Positions 5,445-30,358 of a DNA stretch of 64,000 bases are shown here, one piece after another (position 1 is the stretch's first letter; each line of letters starts with the position of its first letter). Both the position numbers and the translations under genes were made by a program. This DNA comes from Planctomycetota bacterium (lineage in GTDB: Bacteria; Planctomycetota; UBA1135; UBA2386). The DNA lies in contig JAEUHT010000300.1 in NCBI GenBank assembly GCA_016793265.1, positions 1-64,000 on the forward strand. Reading direction: 5' to 3'. The notes beneath the pieces were generated by a model. The model had not been told where the DNA came from, made no database searches, and was given only the letters and a program-made list of their open reading frames with translations.

Positions 5445-6683
5445 TCACTTCCACTGGTACGCGTACGGCACCACCACGATGCCGCTCGACGACACCGTGA
5501 AGCGCTTGCGGTCGTGCTCGACGTCGTAGCCGATCACGGTGCCGTCGGGCACCTCGTTCCACTTGTCGATGATGACGCGCTTGAGCTTGCAGCCCTTGCC
5601 GACGCGCGCGCCGCGCAGCACGATGCACTCGTCGAGCTGGCTGTGTTCGTCGACGTAGACGCGGTTGCTCAGCAACGAGCGGCGCGCCTTGGCGCCGCTG
5701 ACGACGACGCCTGGGCTCAGCATGCAGTCCTGCACCTCGGCGCGGCGGCCGTCGCCGGGTTCGGAGAACACCGTCTTCGCCGGCGGGTCGTTGTGCCACA
5801 GCGTGTAGGTCGGCCAGTCCTGGCGATACAGGTTCAGGTTCGGCTTGACGCTGCACAGGTCCATGTTGGCGTCGAAGTAGGCCTCGATGGTGCCGACGTC
5901 GCGCCAATACGGCGGGTCGCCGGCGCCGAGGCCCTTGAAGGCGTGCGCAAAGACCGGCACCTGGTCGATCATGCGCGGGATCACGTGGTGCCCGAAATCG
6001 CCGCCTTGGCCCTCGGGCATGGCGTTGTCGGCGCGCAACCGCCGGATCAGCTCCTGCGTCTCGAACACGTAGATGCCCATCGAGGCGAGGCAGAAACCCG
6101 GTTCGCCGGGGATCTCGGGCGCGTTCTGCTTCGGCTTCTCGACGAAGCCGGTGACGCGACCGTCGGCGGCGACCTGCAGGATGCCGAAGCTCGGCGCCTC
6201 CGCCGCCGGCACCTTGACGGCGCCGATCGTCAGTTTCGCCTCGTGATCGACGTGCTCCCGCAGCATGTCGCGGTAGTCCATCTGGTAGACGTGGTCGCCG
6301 GACAACACGACGACGTTCGGCGGCTGCCAGTCGAGGATCGAGTCGAGGTTGTGGAAGATCGCGTCGGCGGTGCCGCGGTACCACTTGCCCACCGAGACGT
6401 GGTGCGGCGGCGAGCAGGTGATCCACTGCTCCAGGCGGCGCGGCAGGAAGTTCCAGCCGAAGCGGATGTGCTCCTCGAGCGACCGCGCCTGGTATTGCGT
6501 CAGCAGGTGGATGCGACGCAGGCCCGAGTGGATGCAGTTGCTGAGCGTGAAGTCGATGATGCGGTAGCTGCCGCCGAAAGGCACCGCGGGCTTGGCGCGG
6601 TTCGACGTCAGCGGCTTCAGCCGGCTGCCCTCGCCACCGGCGAGGATGAAGGTGAGGGTGTTCTTGAGATCGAGGTTGACCAT
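5445..6683 (-). CDS. glgC: glucose-1-phosphate adenylyltransferase
   Basis: 412 residues, a normal length for GlgC. It makes ADP-glucose from glucose-1-phosphate and ATP, the committed step of bacterial glycogen synthesis. The N-terminus TFILAGGEGSRLKPLT followed by NRAKPAVPFGG is the nucleotide-binding signature; VLSGDHVYQMDYR, FVEKPK and PYWRDVGTIEAYF are conserved sugar-nucleotide motifs, and the C-terminal third is the left-handed beta-helix (repeats such as SPGVVVSGAKARRSLL). The ATG at 6683 gives MVNLDLKNTLTFILAGG; an upstream in-frame ATG at 6740 would add 19 unconserved residues. It is divergent from the other three glycogen genes. FVEKPK contains the lysine that usually contacts the sugar phosphate. 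Confidence 0.96.
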   Translation of the reverse strand: MVNLDLKNTLTFILAGGEGSRLKPLTSNRAKPAVPFGGSYRIIDFTLSNCIHSGLRRIHLLTQYQARSLEEHIRFGWNFLPRRLEQWITCSPPHHVSVGKWYRGTADAIFHNLDSILDWQPPNVVVLSGDHVYQMDYRDMLREHVDHEAKLTIGAVKVPAAEAPSFGILQVAADGRVTGFVEKPKQNAPEIPGEPGFCLASMGIYVFETQELIRRLRADNAMPEGQGGDFGHHVIPRMIDQVPVFAHAFKGLGAGDPPYWRDVGTIEAYFDANMDLCSVKPNLNLYRQDWPTYTLWHNDPPAKTVFSEPGDGRRAEVQDCMLSPGVVVSGAKARRSLLSNRVYVDEHSQLDECIVLRGARVGKGCKLKRVIIDKWNEVPDGTVIGYDVEHDRKRFTVSSSGIVVVPYAYQWK

Positions 6684-6797
6684 GCGATCCACAGGCTCGG
6701 GTTCGGCACGCGTCGGAGTCGGGAAGGATGCAGGGACCACGGCGTCGACAGAAGGGCCAGCTGGCGAAACCGGGGCGAGCGCTGCGCCAAGGATTCG

Positions 6798-6825
6798 TTG
6801 ATACGGGTGCTTCGGCTCGTACTGT
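6798..6825 (+). promoter_or_regulatory. putative promoter of the debranching enzyme operon
   Basis: TTGATA (6798-6803), a 16-bp spacer and TACTGT (6820-6825), 27 nt before the GTG at 6853. The -35 matches the sigma-70 consensus at five of six positions. It lies in the glgC/debranching-enzyme divergent region. Confidence 0.5.
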
Positions 6826-6852
6826 GGTCCGGCCGCTGCCGCGCTGCACCCC

Positions 6853-8835
6853 GTGTCGAACCCCGCCGCCCGTCCCGAAGCTCTGCCGCTCGTCGCTGCT
6901 GCCGTGCCGCCGCCCGACGCCGAGTGGTTGCTCGTCGATGGCCAGGGTGGCTACGCCTGCGGCTCGGTCGACGACCTCGCGCGACGGCGTTACCACGGCT
7001 GGTGGAACGTGCGCCGGCCGGGCTCGGCGCGGCGCTGGTCGCTGCTCGCCGGCGCCGACGAGCGCATCGTCGAGCGCGGCCGCGAGCTGTCGCTGCAGCA
7101 CGCCCACTGGCACGGCCAGCCCGAGCCGTGGGCGCCGCTGGCGCAGCGCAGCTTCGAGCGCTGGCCTTTGCCGACCTGGACCTTCGTCGCCGACGGCGTG
7201 CGCCTCACCCGTTCGCTCGTGCTGCGGCAGGCCGCCGGGGAGGTGCCGCCGTGTCTGTGCGTACGCTGGCAGAACCTCGGCGAACGTGCGCTGCGGCTGC
7301 TGGTGCGGCCGCTGTTCGGCTGGTGCGACGTCGATCACCTGCCGCCGGCCGACACCACCTTCGACGGCACGCTGCACGCGCGCGGCGCCAGTTGGGGGGT
7401 GCGGCCGAATGCGTCGCTGCCGACCGCCTGGCTCAGCGTCGAAGGCGTCGCCGCCTGCCGCGCCGAGCCGGCGTGGTATCGCGGCTTCGAGCTGGCCACC
7501 GATGCGGCGCGCGGCTTCGACCACACCGCCGACCGCTGGAGCCCGCTGGTGCTCGAGCTCGATCTCGCGCCGGGCGCCGACGCTGTGCTGGCGGTGGCGC
7601 TCGACGAGCCGGTCGCGGCGCCGCACCTTGCCTTCGCCGCGGCGTTGGCCGCGGTGCCGCCGCTGCTGCCGGCCGCACCACCGCAGGCGCCCGAGTTCGC
7701 CGGCCTCTCGGCCCGGCTGACGCGCACCGCCGACGACTTCTTCTACCGCGCCGACGGTGGCCGCCTCGGCGTGCTGGCCGGCTTCCCGTGGTTCGGGGAA
7801 TGGGGGCGCGACGTGTTCCTGGCCCTGCCCGGGCTCACGCTGGCGCGCGGCCAGGCCGACCGTTGTCGCGAGGTGCTGCTCGGCGCCCTGCCGTTCCTGC
7901 GTCTAGGCCTGTTGCCGAACATCTACGGCGCCACGGCCGACGACAGCCACTACGGCAGCTGTGATGCGGCGCTGTGGTTCGCCCTCGCCGTGCAGCGCTT
8001 CGCCGATGCCGGTCACGACGCGGCGCTGGTGGACGAACGGCTGCTGCCGGCGCTCGGCAGCATCGTCGACGCCTACGTGCACGGCTCCGACCTCGGCCTC
8101 GCCGTCGACCGGGACGGCCTGCTGCGGGCCGGCCGCGACGACCTCAATGCGACCTGGATGGACGCCCGCACCGCGGCCGGGCCGGTGACGCCGCGCGCCG
8201 GCCTGCCGGTCGAGATCCAGGCGGCGTGGTACTCGCTGCTGGCCTTCCTCGTCGAGCGTGGCGAGACCCGCTGGAAGGCGCTGCGCGATCGCTGCGGCAA
8301 GGCCTTCGTGCGCGACTTCTGGCTCGCCGATGGCGACTACCTCGCCGACCGGGTGCAGCGCGGCGAACCGGACCGCTGCGTGCGGCCCAACATGCTGATT
8401 GCCGCCGCGCTGGCCCGGTCGCCGTTGACCACGAAGCAGCGCGCCGGCGTCGTCGCGCGCGCGACCGCCGAGCTGCTGACGCCGTGTGGCCTGCGCACGC
8501 TGTCGCCTCACGACCCCGCCTACCGCGGTCGATTCGAGGGTGGCCCCGAGGCGCGGGACCTCGCCTACCACCAGGGCACGGTGTGGCCGTGGCTCGCCGG
8601 CTGCTACGTCGAGGCGGCGCTGCGGGCGGTGCCCAAACGCGGCCTCGCCCGGGAACGGCAGCGGCTCGCCACCTGGCTCGCCGGCTTCGCCGCCGAGCTG
8701 GAGCGCGCCGGCCTCGACCACGTCAGCGAGGTGTTCGACGGCGACGCGCCGCAGCGCCCCGGCGGCAGCTTCGCGCAGGCCTGGAACAGCGGCGAGCTGC
8801 TGCGGGCCGCGAGGTTGTTGACGGAGGGGGCGTGA
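6853..8835 (+). CDS. glycogen debranching enzyme (amylo-alpha-1,6-glucosidase family)
   Basis: 660 residues, GTG start. The N-terminal 270 residues match the GDE_N sandwich domain (DGQGGYACGSVDDLARRRYH is its typical opening). From about 280 onward is an (alpha/alpha)6 barrel with the GDE_C hallmark GFPWFGEWGRDVFLALPG (310-327; Asp320 is the likely catalytic acid region), then GLLPNIYG, NATWMDART and YHQGTVWPWLAG. It hydrolyses alpha-1,6 branches left by phosphorylase. It overlaps the GH57 gene by GTGA (8832-8835), so the two are translationally coupled; phosphorylase is encoded just beyond, completing a degradation set. Confidence 0.92.
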   Translation: MSNPAARPEALPLVAAAVPPPDAEWLLVDGQGGYACGSVDDLARRRYHGWWNVRRPGSARRWSLLAGADERIVERGRELSLQHAHWHGQPEPWAPLAQRSFERWPLPTWTFVADGVRLTRSLVLRQAAGEVPPCLCVRWQNLGERALRLLVRPLFGWCDVDHLPPADTTFDGTLHARGASWGVRPNASLPTAWLSVEGVAACRAEPAWYRGFELATDAARGFDHTADRWSPLVLELDLAPGADAVLAVALDEPVAAPHLAFAAALAAVPPLLPAAPPQAPEFAGLSARLTRTADDFFYRADGGRLGVLAGFPWFGEWGRDVFLALPGLTLARGQADRCREVLLGALPFLRLGLLPNIYGATADDSHYGSCDAALWFALAVQRFADAGHDAALVDERLLPALGSIVDAYVHGSDLGLAVDRDGLLRAGRDDLNATWMDARTAAGPVTPRAGLPVEIQAAWYSLLAFLVERGETRWKALRDRCGKAFVRDFWLADGDYLADRVQRGEPDRCVRPNMLIAAALARSPLTTKQRAGVVARATAELLTPCGLRTLSPHDPAYRGRFEGGPEARDLAYHQGTVWPWLAGCYVEAALRAVPKRGLARERQRLATWLAGFAAELERAGLDHVSEVFDGDAPQRPGGSFAQAWNSGELLRAARLLTEGA

Positions 8836-25618: not shown

Positions 25619-26527
25619 ATGGCGGTCCCGTCACGAACGTCCTGGAAAGGGCATCTCAAGCTGAGCCTGGTGTCCGTGCCGGTGAAGGCGTTCACCGCCA
25701 ATGACACCGCCGGCGAGGTGCACCTCAACCAGCTGCACAAGGACTGCAACAGCCGGGTGCGCTATCAGAAGGTCTGCCCCGAGCACGGCGAACTGAAGAG
25801 CGAGGCGATCGTCAGCGGCTTCGAGCACCAGAAGGACAGCTACGTCGTCGTCGACCCCGCCGAGCTCGACAAGCTGCGCACCAAGGCCGACCGTTCGGTC
25901 AGCATCGACGGCTTCATCCCGAAGCACGCCGTCGACAGCCGCTACTTCGCCGGCAAGGCGCACTACCTGTTGCCCGACGGCCCGGCCGGCGCGCGGCCGT
26001 ACGCGCTGTTGCGGGAGGGCATGCAGCGCGGCGACGTCGTCGCGATCGCGCAGGTGGTGATGGCGGGCCGCGAGCAGCTCGTGCTGCTGCGCCCGCTCGG
26101 CCGCCTGCTGGTGATGACGGGCCTGCACTATCCGCAGCGCGTGCGCGCCGTCGATGAGTTCGAGGCCGAGGTCGAGGAGCTCGCCTTCAAGCCGGAGGAG
26201 GTGGCGCTGACCGACACCCTGATCGGCGCCAGCAAGCTCGCCAGCTTCGACCTCGGCAGCTACTCCGACACCTACGTGACGAAGTTGAAGCGCCTGATCG
26301 AGATCAAGGTCGCCGGTCAGGAGGTCGTGCAGGCGCCGGACCTCGAAGAGCCGAAGATCCTCAACCTCATGGACGCGCTGAAGAAGAGCGTGGCCGAGGC
26401 GCAGGCGCGGCTCGCCGGCGGTGGGGCGGAGCCGGCCGCGCCGGTGGCGCCGCCGGTCGCCGACAAGAAGCTGGCGCCGAGCAGCGGCGGCCGGCGCAAG
26501 GGGCCGCGCAAGGTCGAGGGCGAGTGA
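25619..26527 (+). CDS. ku: Ku protein (non-homologous end joining)
   Basis: 302 residues, a normal bacterial Ku. SWKGHLKLSLVSVPVKAFTA is the family N-terminus; RYQKVCPEHGEL, VVVDPAELDKLR, DSRYFAGKAHYLLPDG and YPQRVRAVDEFEAEVEELA follow in order, ending in a basic Lys/Arg-rich tail (GGRRKGPRKVEGE) of the kind that modulates DNA and ligase binding. It should form a ring-shaped homodimer on double-strand ends and recruit the ligase. ATG 25619 is chosen as the family start. It is followed with a GTGA overlap (26524-26527) by a ligase gene. Confidence 0.96.
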   Translation: MAVPSRTSWKGHLKLSLVSVPVKAFTANDTAGEVHLNQLHKDCNSRVRYQKVCPEHGELKSEAIVSGFEHQKDSYVVVDPAELDKLRTKADRSVSIDGFIPKHAVDSRYFAGKAHYLLPDGPAGARPYALLREGMQRGDVVAIAQVVMAGREQLVLLRPLGRLLVMTGLHYPQRVRAVDEFEAEVEELAFKPEEVALTDTLIGASKLASFDLGSYSDTYVTKLKRLIEIKVAGQEVVQAPDLEEPKILNLMDALKKSVAEAQARLAGGGAEPAAPVAPPVADKKLAPSSGGRRKGPRKVEGE

Positions 26528-27456
26528 TCGCCGTGGGGCAGCGCCGATCGTTGCCGTCGCACGTACCGCCGATGCTGGCGCAGAGCGGGCGGCCGTTCGA
26601 TTCGCCGCAGCACCTGTTCGAGGTCAAGTGGGACGGGGTGCGCGCGGTGAGCTACATCGAAGGCGGCAGGCTGCGAATGCACGGGCGCCGCCGCCGCGAC
26701 CTCGCCACCCGCTATCCGGAGCTCGACTTCCTCGCCGGCCTGCCGAGCGGGCTCGTGCTCGACGGCGAACTGGTCGTGCTGCAACCCGATGGCAGCGCCG
26801 ACTTCCGCGCCGTGCTGGCGCGCGAGAACGCGGGCGCGGCCGGGGTCGCCGCCGCGGCGAGGCGCCACCCGGTCGTCTACATCGTCTTCGACCTGCTCTA
26901 CGAGCACGGCGAGCCGCTGCTGGAGCTGCCGCTGCGCGAGCGGCGCGCCCGCCTCACGCAGGTGGTGGCGTCGTCGCCGTCGCCGCGGCTGTCGTTGTCG
27001 GAGGGCGTCGAAGGCCACGGCCTGTCGCTGTTCGCGGCGGTGCGCGAGCGGGGCATCGAGGGCATCGTCGGCAAACGACTCGATTCCCCGTACCGCCCCG
27101 GCGAGCGTGGCGACGCCTGGCTCAAGATCAAGCCGGTGCACAGCGTGCACTGTCTGATCCTCGGCTACGAGCCCGACGCCGCCCGCGGCTTCAAGTCGTT
27201 GATCATCGCCAGCGACCTCGACGGGGCGCTGCGCTGCGTCGGCAAGGTCGGTTCGGGCATCGGCGAGGTCGAACGTAATGAGCTGCGGCGGCTGCTGGCG
27301 GCGCGGCGTTGCGAGCGGCCGCTGCTCGACACCGGCGTCAACGGCGTCTGGGTGACGCCGGGGCTCTACTGCACCGTCAACTACCTCGAACGCACGCCGA
27401 GCGGTGCCCTGCGGGCGCCGGTGTTCGTGGCGCTGTTGCCAGAGGTTCTCGCATGA
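26524..27456 (+). CDS. stand-alone ATP-dependent DNA ligase (LigC/LigD ligase-domain type)
   Basis: 310 residues: a nucleotidyltransferase domain (about 15-200) plus an OB fold (about 205-310), with no extra polymerase or nuclease domain. Motif I is FEVKWDGVR (Lys35, AMP acceptor); LDGELVV, VYIVFDLLYEHGE, GIEGIVGKRLDSPY and WLKIKPV are motifs III, IIIa, IV and V, all intact. It seals nicks and end-joining breaks. The GTG start overlaps the ku stop, and its own stop overlaps the next ATG (27453-27456). It probably supplies the sealing step that the nearby LigD has lost. Confidence 0.94.
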   Translation: MIAVGQRRSLPSHVPPMLAQSGRPFDSPQHLFEVKWDGVRAVSYIEGGRLRMHGRRRRDLATRYPELDFLAGLPSGLVLDGELVVLQPDGSADFRAVLARENAGAAGVAAAARRHPVVYIVFDLLYEHGEPLLELPLRERRARLTQVVASSPSPRLSLSEGVEGHGLSLFAAVRERGIEGIVGKRLDSPYRPGERGDAWLKIKPVHSVHCLILGYEPDAARGFKSLIIASDLDGALRCVGKVGSGIGEVERNELRRLLAARRCERPLLDTGVNGVWVTPGLYCTVNYLERTPSGALRAPVFVALLPEVLA

Positions 27457-28307
27457 AGGGCGAAGCCGGCGGCGAGCGCACCTTCACGGCCGCGGAGCTC
27501 GCCGAGCTGTGCGGCTTGCCCGACAACGTCGTACAGCGCTGGATCGACCGCGAGCTCTTGTTGCCGCAGCGCGGCACGGTGCGGCAGTTCGCGTTCAAGG
27601 AGGTCGGCACCGTGCGCACGCTGGCGCAGCTGTGGCGCGCCGGCTGGACGGCGCCGCGCATCGCCCGCGCCTTCGCCCTGGCCTGCACCGTGGTCGGCGA
27701 TCGGGAGCAGGCGCTCGCCGGCCTGTTGGCCAGCATCGGCCAGCGCCGCATCACCGTGCGTACGCCGGATGGGCGCCTGGTCGAGCCGGGCGGCCAGCTG
27801 CTGTTCGACTTCCAGGCCGCCGCCGCCGCCACCGAGTTGCCGCGGCTGCGTTCGCCGCAGGACTGGTTCGCGATCGGCGTCGACGCCGAGGCGGCGGGCC
27901 GGCTCGAGGACGCGGTGCGCGCCTACGAGCACGCGCTGTCGGGGCAGAGCGCCGAGACCCACTTCAACCTCGGCAACTGCTACTACGCGCTGCGTCGGCG
28001 CGGCGACGCGGCGACGCAGTTCGCGGCGGCGATCGCGCGCGCGCCCGAGTACGCCGAAGCCTGGAACAACCTCGGCATCGTGCGCGGCGAACTCGGCGAT
28101 CGTGATGGTGCGGTGGCGGCGCTGCGCGAGGCGCTGCTGATCGTGCCGCACTACGCCGACGCGCACTACAACCTCGCCGAGGCGCTGGCCGTGCTCGGCT
28201 GCCTGCAGGAAGCCCGGCAGCACTGGCGCGCCTACCTGACGTTCGACCCCAACAGCCGCTGGGCCGATCAGGTGCGGCGCCGGTTGCAGGCGAACGGCGG
28301 CTCGTAG
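27453..28307 (+). CDS. MerR-like HTH protein with TPR repeats
   Basis: 284 residues. Residues about 10-80 form a MerR-type winged helix (FTAAELAELCGLPDNVVQRW, then GTVRQFAFKEVGTVRTLAQL). From about 135 there are three to four TPR units (WFAIGVDAEAAGRLEDAVRA, THFNLGNCYYALRRRGDAAT, AWNNLGIVRGELGDRDGAVA, AHYNLAEALAVLGCLQEARQ). Such MerR-TPR proteins are common in planctomycetes and acidobacteria without an assigned role. It is the last gene of the Ku operon (ATGA overlap with the ligase), so it may regulate or scaffold end joining, which is inference from context. Confidence 0.85.
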   Translation: MKGEAGGERTFTAAELAELCGLPDNVVQRWIDRELLLPQRGTVRQFAFKEVGTVRTLAQLWRAGWTAPRIARAFALACTVVGDREQALAGLLASIGQRRITVRTPDGRLVEPGGQLLFDFQAAAAATELPRLRSPQDWFAIGVDAEAAGRLEDAVRAYEHALSGQSAETHFNLGNCYYALRRRGDAATQFAAAIARAPEYAEAWNNLGIVRGELGDRDGAVAALREALLIVPHYADAHYNLAEALAVLGCLQEARQHWRAYLTFDPNSRWADQVRRRLQANGGS

Positions 28308-28327
28308 CCGGCAGGCCGACCGGCGGC

Positions 28328-30358
28328 TCAGCCCGAACGCAGCACGGCCTCGAGCGCCGCGATCGCCGGCAGCAGGTCCTGGCGGTCGTCGAGCGCCTTG
28401 CGGAACAGGTCGCCGTGCGCCGCGAGCCGCGCCGGCATCGTCTGCATGGTGAAGCGGCGCGGCGACAGGTCCGCCGCTTCGAGCTCATCCCAGGCCAGCG
28501 GCGCCGACACCGAGGCGCCGCGCACCGGCCGCACCGCGTACGGCGGCACGATCGTCTGGCTGCGGCGGTTCTGCAGGAAGTCCAGGTAGACCTTGCCGTC
28601 GCGTTGGTCCGGCAGCCGTTCGACGGTGGCGATGTCGGGCAGCTCGCGCACCAGCACGCGCGCGACGGCCTCGGTGAACAGGCGGCTGTGCTCGTAGCTG
28701 TAGCCGGGCGCGAGCGGCACGAAGATGTGCATGCCGTTCTTGCCGGAGGTCTTCAGCAGCGGGCGCAGGCCGATGCCGCGCAGCAGGCGGCCGGCGGCGC
28801 GCGCGATGCGCACCACGTGCGCGAACGGCGCCGCCTTCGGGTCGAGGTCGAGCACGGCCCAGTCGGGGCAGTCGAGCGACGCCGTGCGGGACAGCCATGG
28901 ATGCAGGTCGATGCTGCCGAGGTTGGCGACGTACAGCAGCGTCTCGAGGTCGTCGATGACGTGGTGTGCGACGAGCTGGCCATCGTGCGGGATCGGCACC
29001 GTGCGCAACCAGGCCGGCGTGCCGTCCTTGGCCTCGCGCTGGTAGAACGACTTGCCGTCGATGCCGTCGGGGAAGCGGTTGAGGTGCACGGGCCGGTCGC
29101 GCAGGTGCGGCAGCAGCGCGTCGGCGACGGCCTGGTAGTAGCCGATCAGGTCGCCCTTGGTGAAGCCCTCGGCCGGCCAGTAGACCTTGCCGAGGTTGCT
29201 GGGCCGGAAGCGGGCGGGGGGGGCGGCCCGGCCGGCGGCGGTGCCGGTGGCTGGTGTCGTCGGCGTCGTCGGCGCCGCCCGCGTGACCACACGGTGCCAC
29301 GCCAACTGCGGGCCCGGGGCGTAGCCGCTGTCGGCGCGCTTGCCGATCGCCGCGGCGAAGCCGGCGTCGTGCATCGCCCGCAGCAGGGCTTCGCCGTCGC
29401 CGGTGACGTGGTCGACGAACAGCACGCGGCCCGGTGTGGTCACCAGCGTGCGCAGCGCCGCCTTGCGATCGAGCAGCGGCAGCGCCCGCAGGTCGTACTC
29501 TTCCCACTGCAGCAGATCGAAGGTGTAGAAGGCAGTCGTGGCGTCGCCGTGCTGCAGCGCGCGGGCGGTCGCCGCGGCATCGGGTCGGCCATCGGCGCCG
29601 AGCGCGACCAGCACGCCGTCGACGACAGCGCGTTCGCAGGCGAGGCCGCGCACGTCGGCGGCGATCGCCGCCGGCAGCGGCAGCGTGGCGAGCACCTGCT
29701 CGCCGTGCTTGACGATGCGGCAGCGCAACCCGGGGAGCTCCAACTCGAACAGCCAGTCCGGGTCGCGGAACGGGCCACGTTCGTGCCCCCAGCGCATCGG
29801 CGGCGCGTCGAGCGGCACGTCGGCGATCGGGGCGCCGTCGAGGTCGATGCCGAGCGCGCTGTCGCGGCCGTGGCCGGCGTAGCGGTCCTTGGACTTGAAC
29901 AACAGCCAGCTGTTCTTCGCCTGCTGCGTGCGCACGAGGTGCCACTCGCCCCGCAGCCGCCGCCCGCGCAGCACGACCTTGAGCTCGCCCTTCTGCATGG
30001 CCTCTTCCCAGTCGGGGATCTTGACCAGCGAGTAGGTGCCGCGGTCCCAGATCGTCATCGTGCCGGCGCCATACTGGCCTTTGGGGATGCGGCCGTGGAA
30101 GTGTTCGTATTCGAGCGGGTGGTCCTCGGTGCGCACGGCCAGGCGCTTGTCGGCCGGGTCGAACGAGAAGCCGCGCGGCACGGCCCAGGACTTCAACACG
30201 CCGTCGCGCTCCAGGCGCAGGTCGTAGTGCAGTTGGCGGGCCTCGTGGCGGTGCACGACAAAGACGTCGTCGCGGCGCGGCGCCGGCGGCGCCGGAGCTG
30301 GCTCCGGCGTCGCCGCGAAGTCGCGCTTCTGCCGGTACTCGTGCAGCGGGTCGGCCAT
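28328..30358 (-). CDS. ligD: LigD with phosphoesterase and polymerase domains and an inactivated ligase domain
   Basis: 676 residues in the order phosphoesterase, ligase-like, primase/polymerase. Phosphoesterase (about 30-160): VHRHEARQLHYDLRLE and EDHPLEYEHFHG hold its metal-binding His residues. Ligase-like (about 195-360): motif I KWDG reads ELPG (Lys replaced by Glu207), motif IV EGIVGK reads AAAIGK and motif V LKIK reads HRVV, so it should not adenylate. Polymerase (about 385-670): VLDLDPKAAPF (Asp504, Asp506), KTSGKNGMHIFVPL and VYLDFLQNRRSQTIVPPY are intact. It would trim and fill ends while the ligase in the convergent Ku operon seals them. ATG 30358 is preceded by TACCAT 8 nt upstream. 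Confidence 0.92.
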   Translation of the reverse strand: MADPLHEYRQKRDFAATPEPAPAPPAPRRDDVFVVHRHEARQLHYDLRLERDGVLKSWAVPRGFSFDPADKRLAVRTEDHPLEYEHFHGRIPKGQYGAGTMTIWDRGTYSLVKIPDWEEAMQKGELKVVLRGRRLRGEWHLVRTQQAKNSWLLFKSKDRYAGHGRDSALGIDLDGAPIADVPLDAPPMRWGHERGPFRDPDWLFELELPGLRCRIVKHGEQVLATLPLPAAIAADVRGLACERAVVDGVLVALGADGRPDAAATARALQHGDATTAFYTFDLLQWEEYDLRALPLLDRKAALRTLVTTPGRVLFVDHVTGDGEALLRAMHDAGFAAAIGKRADSGYAPGPQLAWHRVVTRAAPTTPTTPATGTAAGRAAPPARFRPSNLGKVYWPAEGFTKGDLIGYYQAVADALLPHLRDRPVHLNRFPDGIDGKSFYQREAKDGTPAWLRTVPIPHDGQLVAHHVIDDLETLLYVANLGSIDLHPWLSRTASLDCPDWAVLDLDPKAAPFAHVVRIARAAGRLLRGIGLRPLLKTSGKNGMHIFVPLAPGYSYEHSRLFTEAVARVLVRELPDIATVERLPDQRDGKVYLDFLQNRRSQTIVPPYAVRPVRGASVSAPLAWDELEAADLSPRRFTMQTMPARLAAHGDLFRKALDDRQDLLPAIAALEAVLRSG

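Follow-up and report, generated by a model that had tools for sequence, protein, structure and literature searches.

Genes and domains at the locus

We analysed a 64,000-nt stretch of Planctomycetota DNA (hereafter the window, meaning the whole stretch; its source assembly is 81% complete) encoding a non-homologous end-joining (NHEJ) system in which the ligase domain of the multidomain protein LigD appears to be dead and a separate, intact ligase is coupled to ku. A forward-strand operon encodes a bacterial Ku of 302 aa (25619..26527, + strand), a stand-alone ATP-dependent DNA ligase of 310 aa with nucleotidyltransferase (NTase) and OB domains (26524..27456, + strand) and, as its third gene, a 284-aa protein with a MerR-type helix-turn-helix (HTH) and TPRs (27453..28307, + strand). 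The ku stop codon is overlapped by the GTG start of the ligase gene (GTGA, 4 nt), and the ligase gene overlaps the MerR/TPR gene at ATGA. Convergent to this operon, 20 nt past its end, lies ligD (28328..30358, − strand), whose 676-aa product begins with a conserved MxDPL start and has domain profiles in the order phosphoesterase (PE), pseudo-ligase (LIG), polymerase (POL).

The flanking LigD domains are intact. The PE domain (residues 5-165; 29864..30346, − strand) matches TIGR02777 with 205.4 bits against a cut-off of 144 (E 3.9e-61), and aligned with the Pseudomonas aeruginosa PE it retains H38, H44, D46, R48 and H80. The POL domain (residues 388-676; 28331..29197, − strand), of the archaeo-eukaryotic primase (AEP) type, matches PF21686 with 287.6 bits (E 1.2e-85) and retains the catalytic residues D504, D506 and D593 together with H544, all invariant in 42 LigDs.

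Loss of catalytic motifs and of the OB domain in LigD

The domain between PE and POL (residues 180-358; 29285..29821, − strand) has an NTase fold without an OB domain, as judged from TIGR02779, AlphaFold2 and Foldseek. Its PF01068 score of 16.8 bits is below the cut-off of 26.2. TIGR02779 is matched over model positions 8-182 of 302 only: the NTase half is recognisable and the OB half is missing; a linker that is hypervariable in identity and substitutions and modelled with low confidence (residues 359-387; 29198..29284, − strand) takes its place. In motif I, the lysine that is adenylated in active ligases is a glutamate (residue 207, codon 29738..29740), and KWDG has become ELPG. The motif III glutamate is a valine (residue 249, 29612..29614; LDGE to VDGV), Glu-Gly of motif IV is Ala-Ala (residues 335-336, 29351..29356; EGIVGK to AAAIGK), and Lys-x-Lys of motif V is Arg-Val-Val (residues 356-358, 29285..29293; LKIK to HRVV), all of these codons on the minus strand. 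LigD ligation requires the lysine adenylate and an OB domain that positions the DNA (PMC8656161), so the window LigD should not ligate. With the KxDG lysine, the motif III and IV glutamates, the motif V lysines and the OB domain all lost, it is a LigD homologue, yet predicted not to be a DNA ligase.

The original prediction, a reading of the bare sequence, had located the system correctly, with Ku starting at 25619 and the 5' end of the minus-strand LigD at 30358. It had claimed that LigD keeps its phosphoesterase and polymerase motifs, which profiles and residues now confirm, and had named the changes in motifs I, IV and V, each of which is exactly as described. It had also proposed an intact ligase in the convergent ku operon, and profiles, motifs and the OB domain bear this out. 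The motif III change and the deletion of the whole OB domain had been overlooked, and the predicted loss of ligase activity is better founded with them than as first proposed.

The same losses recur across a lineage. Profile searches recovered dead-type LigDs from 36 genomes in groups f1, f6, f8, f15, f23, f27, f33, f47, f63 and f71, some of them fragments at contig ends, and the pseudo-ligase domain could be aligned in 31 genomes of nine groups (f23 has one truncated member only). The motif I position is lysine in all intact LigDs and in 0 of the 31 dead ones, where it is mostly glutamate or arginine. The motif III glutamate is replaced by valine, isoleucine or alanine in all 31, the motif V lysines are likewise lost in 31/31, and the motif IV glutamate is lost with the sole exception of G013. 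The OB domain is absent from every readable LigD with a dead ligase domain. Eleven positions do not vary in the 31 sequences; E205, G210, R212, D247, D281, D289, R298, K299, L302 and W354 are retained in 31/31, and K340 is kept in 30. In the alignment, losses are concentrated on the chemistry of ligation, and retention on the shell of the domain and two motif residues, R212 (the motif I arginine) and K340 (the motif IV lysine).

The stand-alone ligase and its association with dead LigD

The stand-alone ligase has KWDG, LDGE, EGIVGK and WLKIK motifs and an OB domain, and is without PE or POL. It matches PF01068 (108.7 bits) and PF04679 (51.4 bits), and its TIGR02779 score of 223.5 bits is slightly below the equivalog cut-off of 227.75. 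In the source genome it is the one ATP-dependent ligase match, next to one NAD-dependent LigA. Since LigD should not ligate, the ku-coupled ligase is the natural candidate for sealing, and from its operon with ku and its co-occurrence with dead LigD we infer that it seals Ku-bound breaks.

Among 294 evenly sampled genomes of the phylum, with partner-ligase presence called at >330 bits, the partner ligase occurs in exactly 11, the same 11 that have a dead-type LigD (10 with a readable dead domain plus the truncated G400), and in 0 of the 283 others. The census at class level repeats the order-level genomes. In a panel of 59 genomes, the partner ligase was found in 31 of the 36 with dead-type LigD and in none of the 15 with intact LigD. 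Four of the misses (G029, G033, G090 and G102) are incomplete assemblies, 56-77% complete. The misses in the other direction are G011 and G023, where the Ku-LIG-MerR/TPR genes lie on short contigs and the assemblies are fragmented. Wherever flanks are available the ligase gene follows ku, and in most cases the MerR/TPR gene comes after it. In relatives LigD is mostly encoded beside the operon in convergent orientation; it lies several to ~25 kb away in G017, G120, G345 and G108, and elsewhere on another contig.

The fifth miss, G026 (L049), has an internal locus on an 88 kb contig in which both LigD (161 aa of PE) and the ligase (a 139-aa open reading frame, ORF) are broken. Ku was not found in the flank examined and MerR/TPR is intact. 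The arrangement has the appearance of concerted decay of the system.

G169 (group f24; L088) is a telling exception. Its Ku and MerR/TPR proteins fall inside the dead-LigD lineage (support 100 each), its LigD is intact and belongs to another LigD clade, and no ligase gene stands between ku and the MerR/TPR gene. This is an apparent natural reversal of the dead-LigD state, and judged from gene content it is the arrangement that functional complementarity would predict.

Other planctomycetes have further arrangements. G369 (L085) encodes a PE-POL fusion (5673-7322, + strand) with a Lys/Ala/Pro-rich linker and without any LIG domain, and genomes of f17 and f30 (L082-L084) encode PE, POL and LIG in separate ORFs that overlap or lie side by side. 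G038, G058 and G145 (L047, L048 and L066) have a POL homologue alone, with PE, LIG and Ku not detected in the flanks examined; these lone homologues form a separate deep POL clade (support 99).

Selection and fold of the dead domain

Because POL lies downstream, an open reading frame alone is no proof that the dead domain is maintained, and the substitution pattern is needed. Among close pairs in f1, the ratio of nonsynonymous to synonymous substitution rates (dN/dS) is mostly 0.1-0.3 (up to 0.45) for PE and POL, mostly 0.3-0.6 (range 0.27-0.96) for the dead domain, and about 0.4-1.1, a near-neutral pattern, for the linker that follows it. Mean amino acid identities are 0.77 for PE, 0.80 for POL, 0.57 for the dead domain and 0.24 for the linker. 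Indels are nearly absent from the dead domain among close pairs.

An AlphaFold2 model of the whole LigD has a mean predicted local distance difference test score (pLDDT) of 91.3 and a predicted template modelling score (pTM) of 0.54, so that domain placement is uncertain; residues 362-378, in the linker, have pLDDT <50. A model of the domain built from dead sequences alone has a mean pLDDT of 93.1 and a pTM of 0.87, a confident prediction of the ligase nucleotidyltransferase fold. Foldseek matches the domain to the Mycobacterium tuberculosis LigD ligase (6nhx; E 1.9e-12, query TM-score 0.78), and NTase domains from archaeal and human ligases are matched as well. Substitution patterns and models together support purifying selection on the dead domain and a kept fold. 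With its predicted fold retained, its catalytic residues lost and selection apparently maintaining it, the domain has the character of a pseudoenzyme.

Phylogeny and origin

The dead domains form one clade (support 99), in which the f6 members show much stronger degradation (branch 1.43), and the partner stand-alone ligases form a clade of their own (support 99). In the POL tree, LigDs with dead LIG group together with two truncated members (support 87), and this group is sister to f21 and f86 LigDs that keep LIG and the OB domain (joint group, support 97). In the ligase tree, dead and f21 domains already group together (support 73). The simplest history suggested by these trees is a single ligase loss in an f21-type LigD. 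Approximately unbiased (AU) tests rejected neither a constraint uniting dead domains with stand-alone ligases nor one uniting stand-alone ligases with f21, and constrained tree searches even gave better trees than the free quick search.

The original prediction held that the ligase had moved out of LigD. The trees do not show this: the stand-alone ligases are a separate clade, and the constraint tests give them no fixed position with respect to the dead domain. That the two ligase domains form separate clades is clear; paralogy by duplication or fission of the LigD ligase is not settled by the tree or the AU tests.

A viral or mobile origin was considered and rejected, as none of the 36 viral-contig matches to the pattern encodes a relative. 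The nearest relative found outside the phylum, at 44%, is on plasmid 2 of Gemmatirosa kalamazoonensis (Gemmatimonadota; L096 4881-7520, + strand). Dead LigD was not found in this best plasmid relative, in which LigD is an intact PE-LIG-POL protein encoded divergently from Ku. A contig scan with a single query recovered close relatives only.

Ku and MerR/TPR neighbours

Ku matches TIGR02772 with 242.3 bits against a cut-off of 150, and has both the beta-barrel core and a C-terminal extension. Alignment of the Ku tails shows that this C-terminal tail is basic and conserved: KKLAPSSGGRRKGPRKVEGE. In the dead-LigD lineage and in G169 the tails have a motif in common, K-[LM]-A-[PA]-S with a basic stretch after it, which is not evident in the remaining Ku proteins aligned; it is a possible docking site. 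The third operon gene matches PF13411 above the cut-off as well as TPR families, and follows Ku-LIG in most relatives. It also lies behind Ku in f21, an intact-LigD group, and so appears to be linked to NHEJ generally in these planctomycetes.

A proposed split of processing and sealing between polypeptides

How, then, would breaks be joined? If the known mechanism of ligation is closed to this LigD, end joining with Ku must depend on a different protein. A 2006 paper (PMC1378119) asked whether bacterial NHEJ ligases, nucleases and polymerases that stand alone work in trans. With the LigD ligase predicted to be dead and a separate ligase as its near-constant genomic partner, sealing in trans by the stand-alone ligase is the best reading and is well supported by the sequence comparisons. 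LigD would be an end-processing enzyme, a 3'-phosphoesterase and polymerase without ligation, and the nick would be sealed in trans by the ligase encoded overlapping ku. The M. tuberculosis Ku core directly binds LIG and POL (PMC9638933), and a concrete role for the NTase shell may thus be as a docking surface for Ku or DNA. The dead shell would dock or position LigD at the break, most simply via the ancestral contact between the Ku core and LIG, and may also space PE and POL. The scaffold function that the original prediction also proposed is plausible. We regard this whole scheme, with a pseudo-ligase in LigD, a trans ligase and a retained shell used for docking, as a fairly probable account of the locus. 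A bolder version, in which the pseudo-ligase is a lineage-wide adaptor that binds Ku, the separate ligase or both and hands over the processed end, is somewhat less likely than not, and we put it forward tentatively. Of the original prediction, the dead LigD ligase domain, sealing in trans and maintenance of the domain are upheld, and the ligase's departure from LigD is not.

Several observations weigh against this scheme. The dead domain evolves ~2x as fast as PE and POL, and its dN/dS between the window and L032 is 0.96, so relaxed constraint is partly at work on it. Partial distance correlation showed no co-variation specific to the dead domain and the ligase: the partial r of the dead domain is 0.26 with the ligase, 0.36 with PE and 0.43 with MerR/TPR, and all are weaker within f1. 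The genomes behind the co-occurrence counts are linked by shared ancestry, most of the sequences are from fragmented assemblies, the named genomes are metagenome-assembled genomes (MAGs), and the swap in G169 is seen in one genome, the only one of its order.

The rapid evolution, the degraded f6 members and the existence of planctomycetes with a LIG-less PE-POL fusion or with all three parts split would also fit a dead domain that is a mere folded spacer between PE and POL, partnerless and slowly decaying, with the stand-alone ligase still sealing. We think this somewhat unlikely, as the domain is present in all readable members under moderate constraint and almost without indels among close pairs, R212, R298 and K299 are invariant and K340 nearly so, and it is the neighbouring linker that has the look of free sequence. 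Alternatively, the dead domain could be an activating partner that binds the stand-alone ligase and loads it on the nick after processing. Activation of live enzymes by dead paralogues is known (PMC5201418), dead LigD and the ligase co-occur tightly and are broken together in G026, and both are of the same ligase family; the lack of a pair-specific signal, with the correlation to the ligase below those to PE and MerR/TPR, makes us rate this activation as unlikely, slightly more so than the spacer.

Sealing itself could also be assigned differently. The stand-alone ligase might serve another pathway, as does mycobacterial LigC, which acts in base excision repair (PMC5663958), and the NAD-dependent LigA, which is present, would then seal the NHEJ nick. 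This seems improbable given that the ligase gene overlaps ku, tracks the state of LigD, and is absent from intact-LigD genomes and from G169. As many genomes are fragmented assemblies, sequencing, binning or gene-model errors might be invoked for the motif losses. We give this practically no credence: the same kinds of substitution recur in separate assemblies and nine family groups, and their recurrence in 31 genomes, in open frames without stops, rules out chance or sequencing error.

Comparison with known end-joining systems

Modular and split NHEJ systems were described in 2006 (PMC1378119), and surveys sort genomes by the domains present in them (PMC7719229). In the open-access literature searched, no LigD was reported to have a LIG domain that is catalytically dead. 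Modular NHEJ itself is known; the feature that we did not find in that literature is the combination of a pseudo-ligase conserved across a LigD lineage and a ligase in trans that accompanies it almost constantly. Surveys counting only PE, LIG and POL would place these genomes wrongly, in the conventional, LIG-less or split class. The retained dead domain sets any non-catalytic role of LIG, Ku docking for example, apart from catalysis. Nature also supplies matched pairs: LigD intact and no extra ligase, LigD dead with one, and G169 apparently reversed.

Pseudomonas-type LigD has the same PE-LIG-POL order (PMC1378119), and the system shares with it intact PE and POL active sites and a nearby Ku. 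Unlike in that type, LIG here is dead and OB-less, and sealing is assigned to another gene. An intact comparison is provided by the planctomycete LigDs of f21 and f86, the sister POL clade, which keep the ligase motifs and OB domain and are without a stand-alone ligase of the partner clade. In the split NHEJ of archaea and Streptomyces, PE, POL and LIG are stand-alone proteins, and the Ku of Archaeoglobus is linked to a stand-alone ligase; as in those systems, a ku-linked stand-alone ligase would have to act in trans (PMC1378119). Unlike in split NHEJ, PE and POL here stay on one LigD that still bears a folded dead ligase domain. The mycobacterial LigC complex is similar in that a minimal ATP-dependent ligase outside LigD is thought to partner a polymerase on another polypeptide, whereas LigC coexists with an active LigD and acts in base excision repair (PMC5663958), and no active LigD was found here. 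Should the pseudo-ligase indeed be an adaptor, the arrangement would resemble the way in which eukaryotes divide the work between Ku, polymerase and ligase IV.

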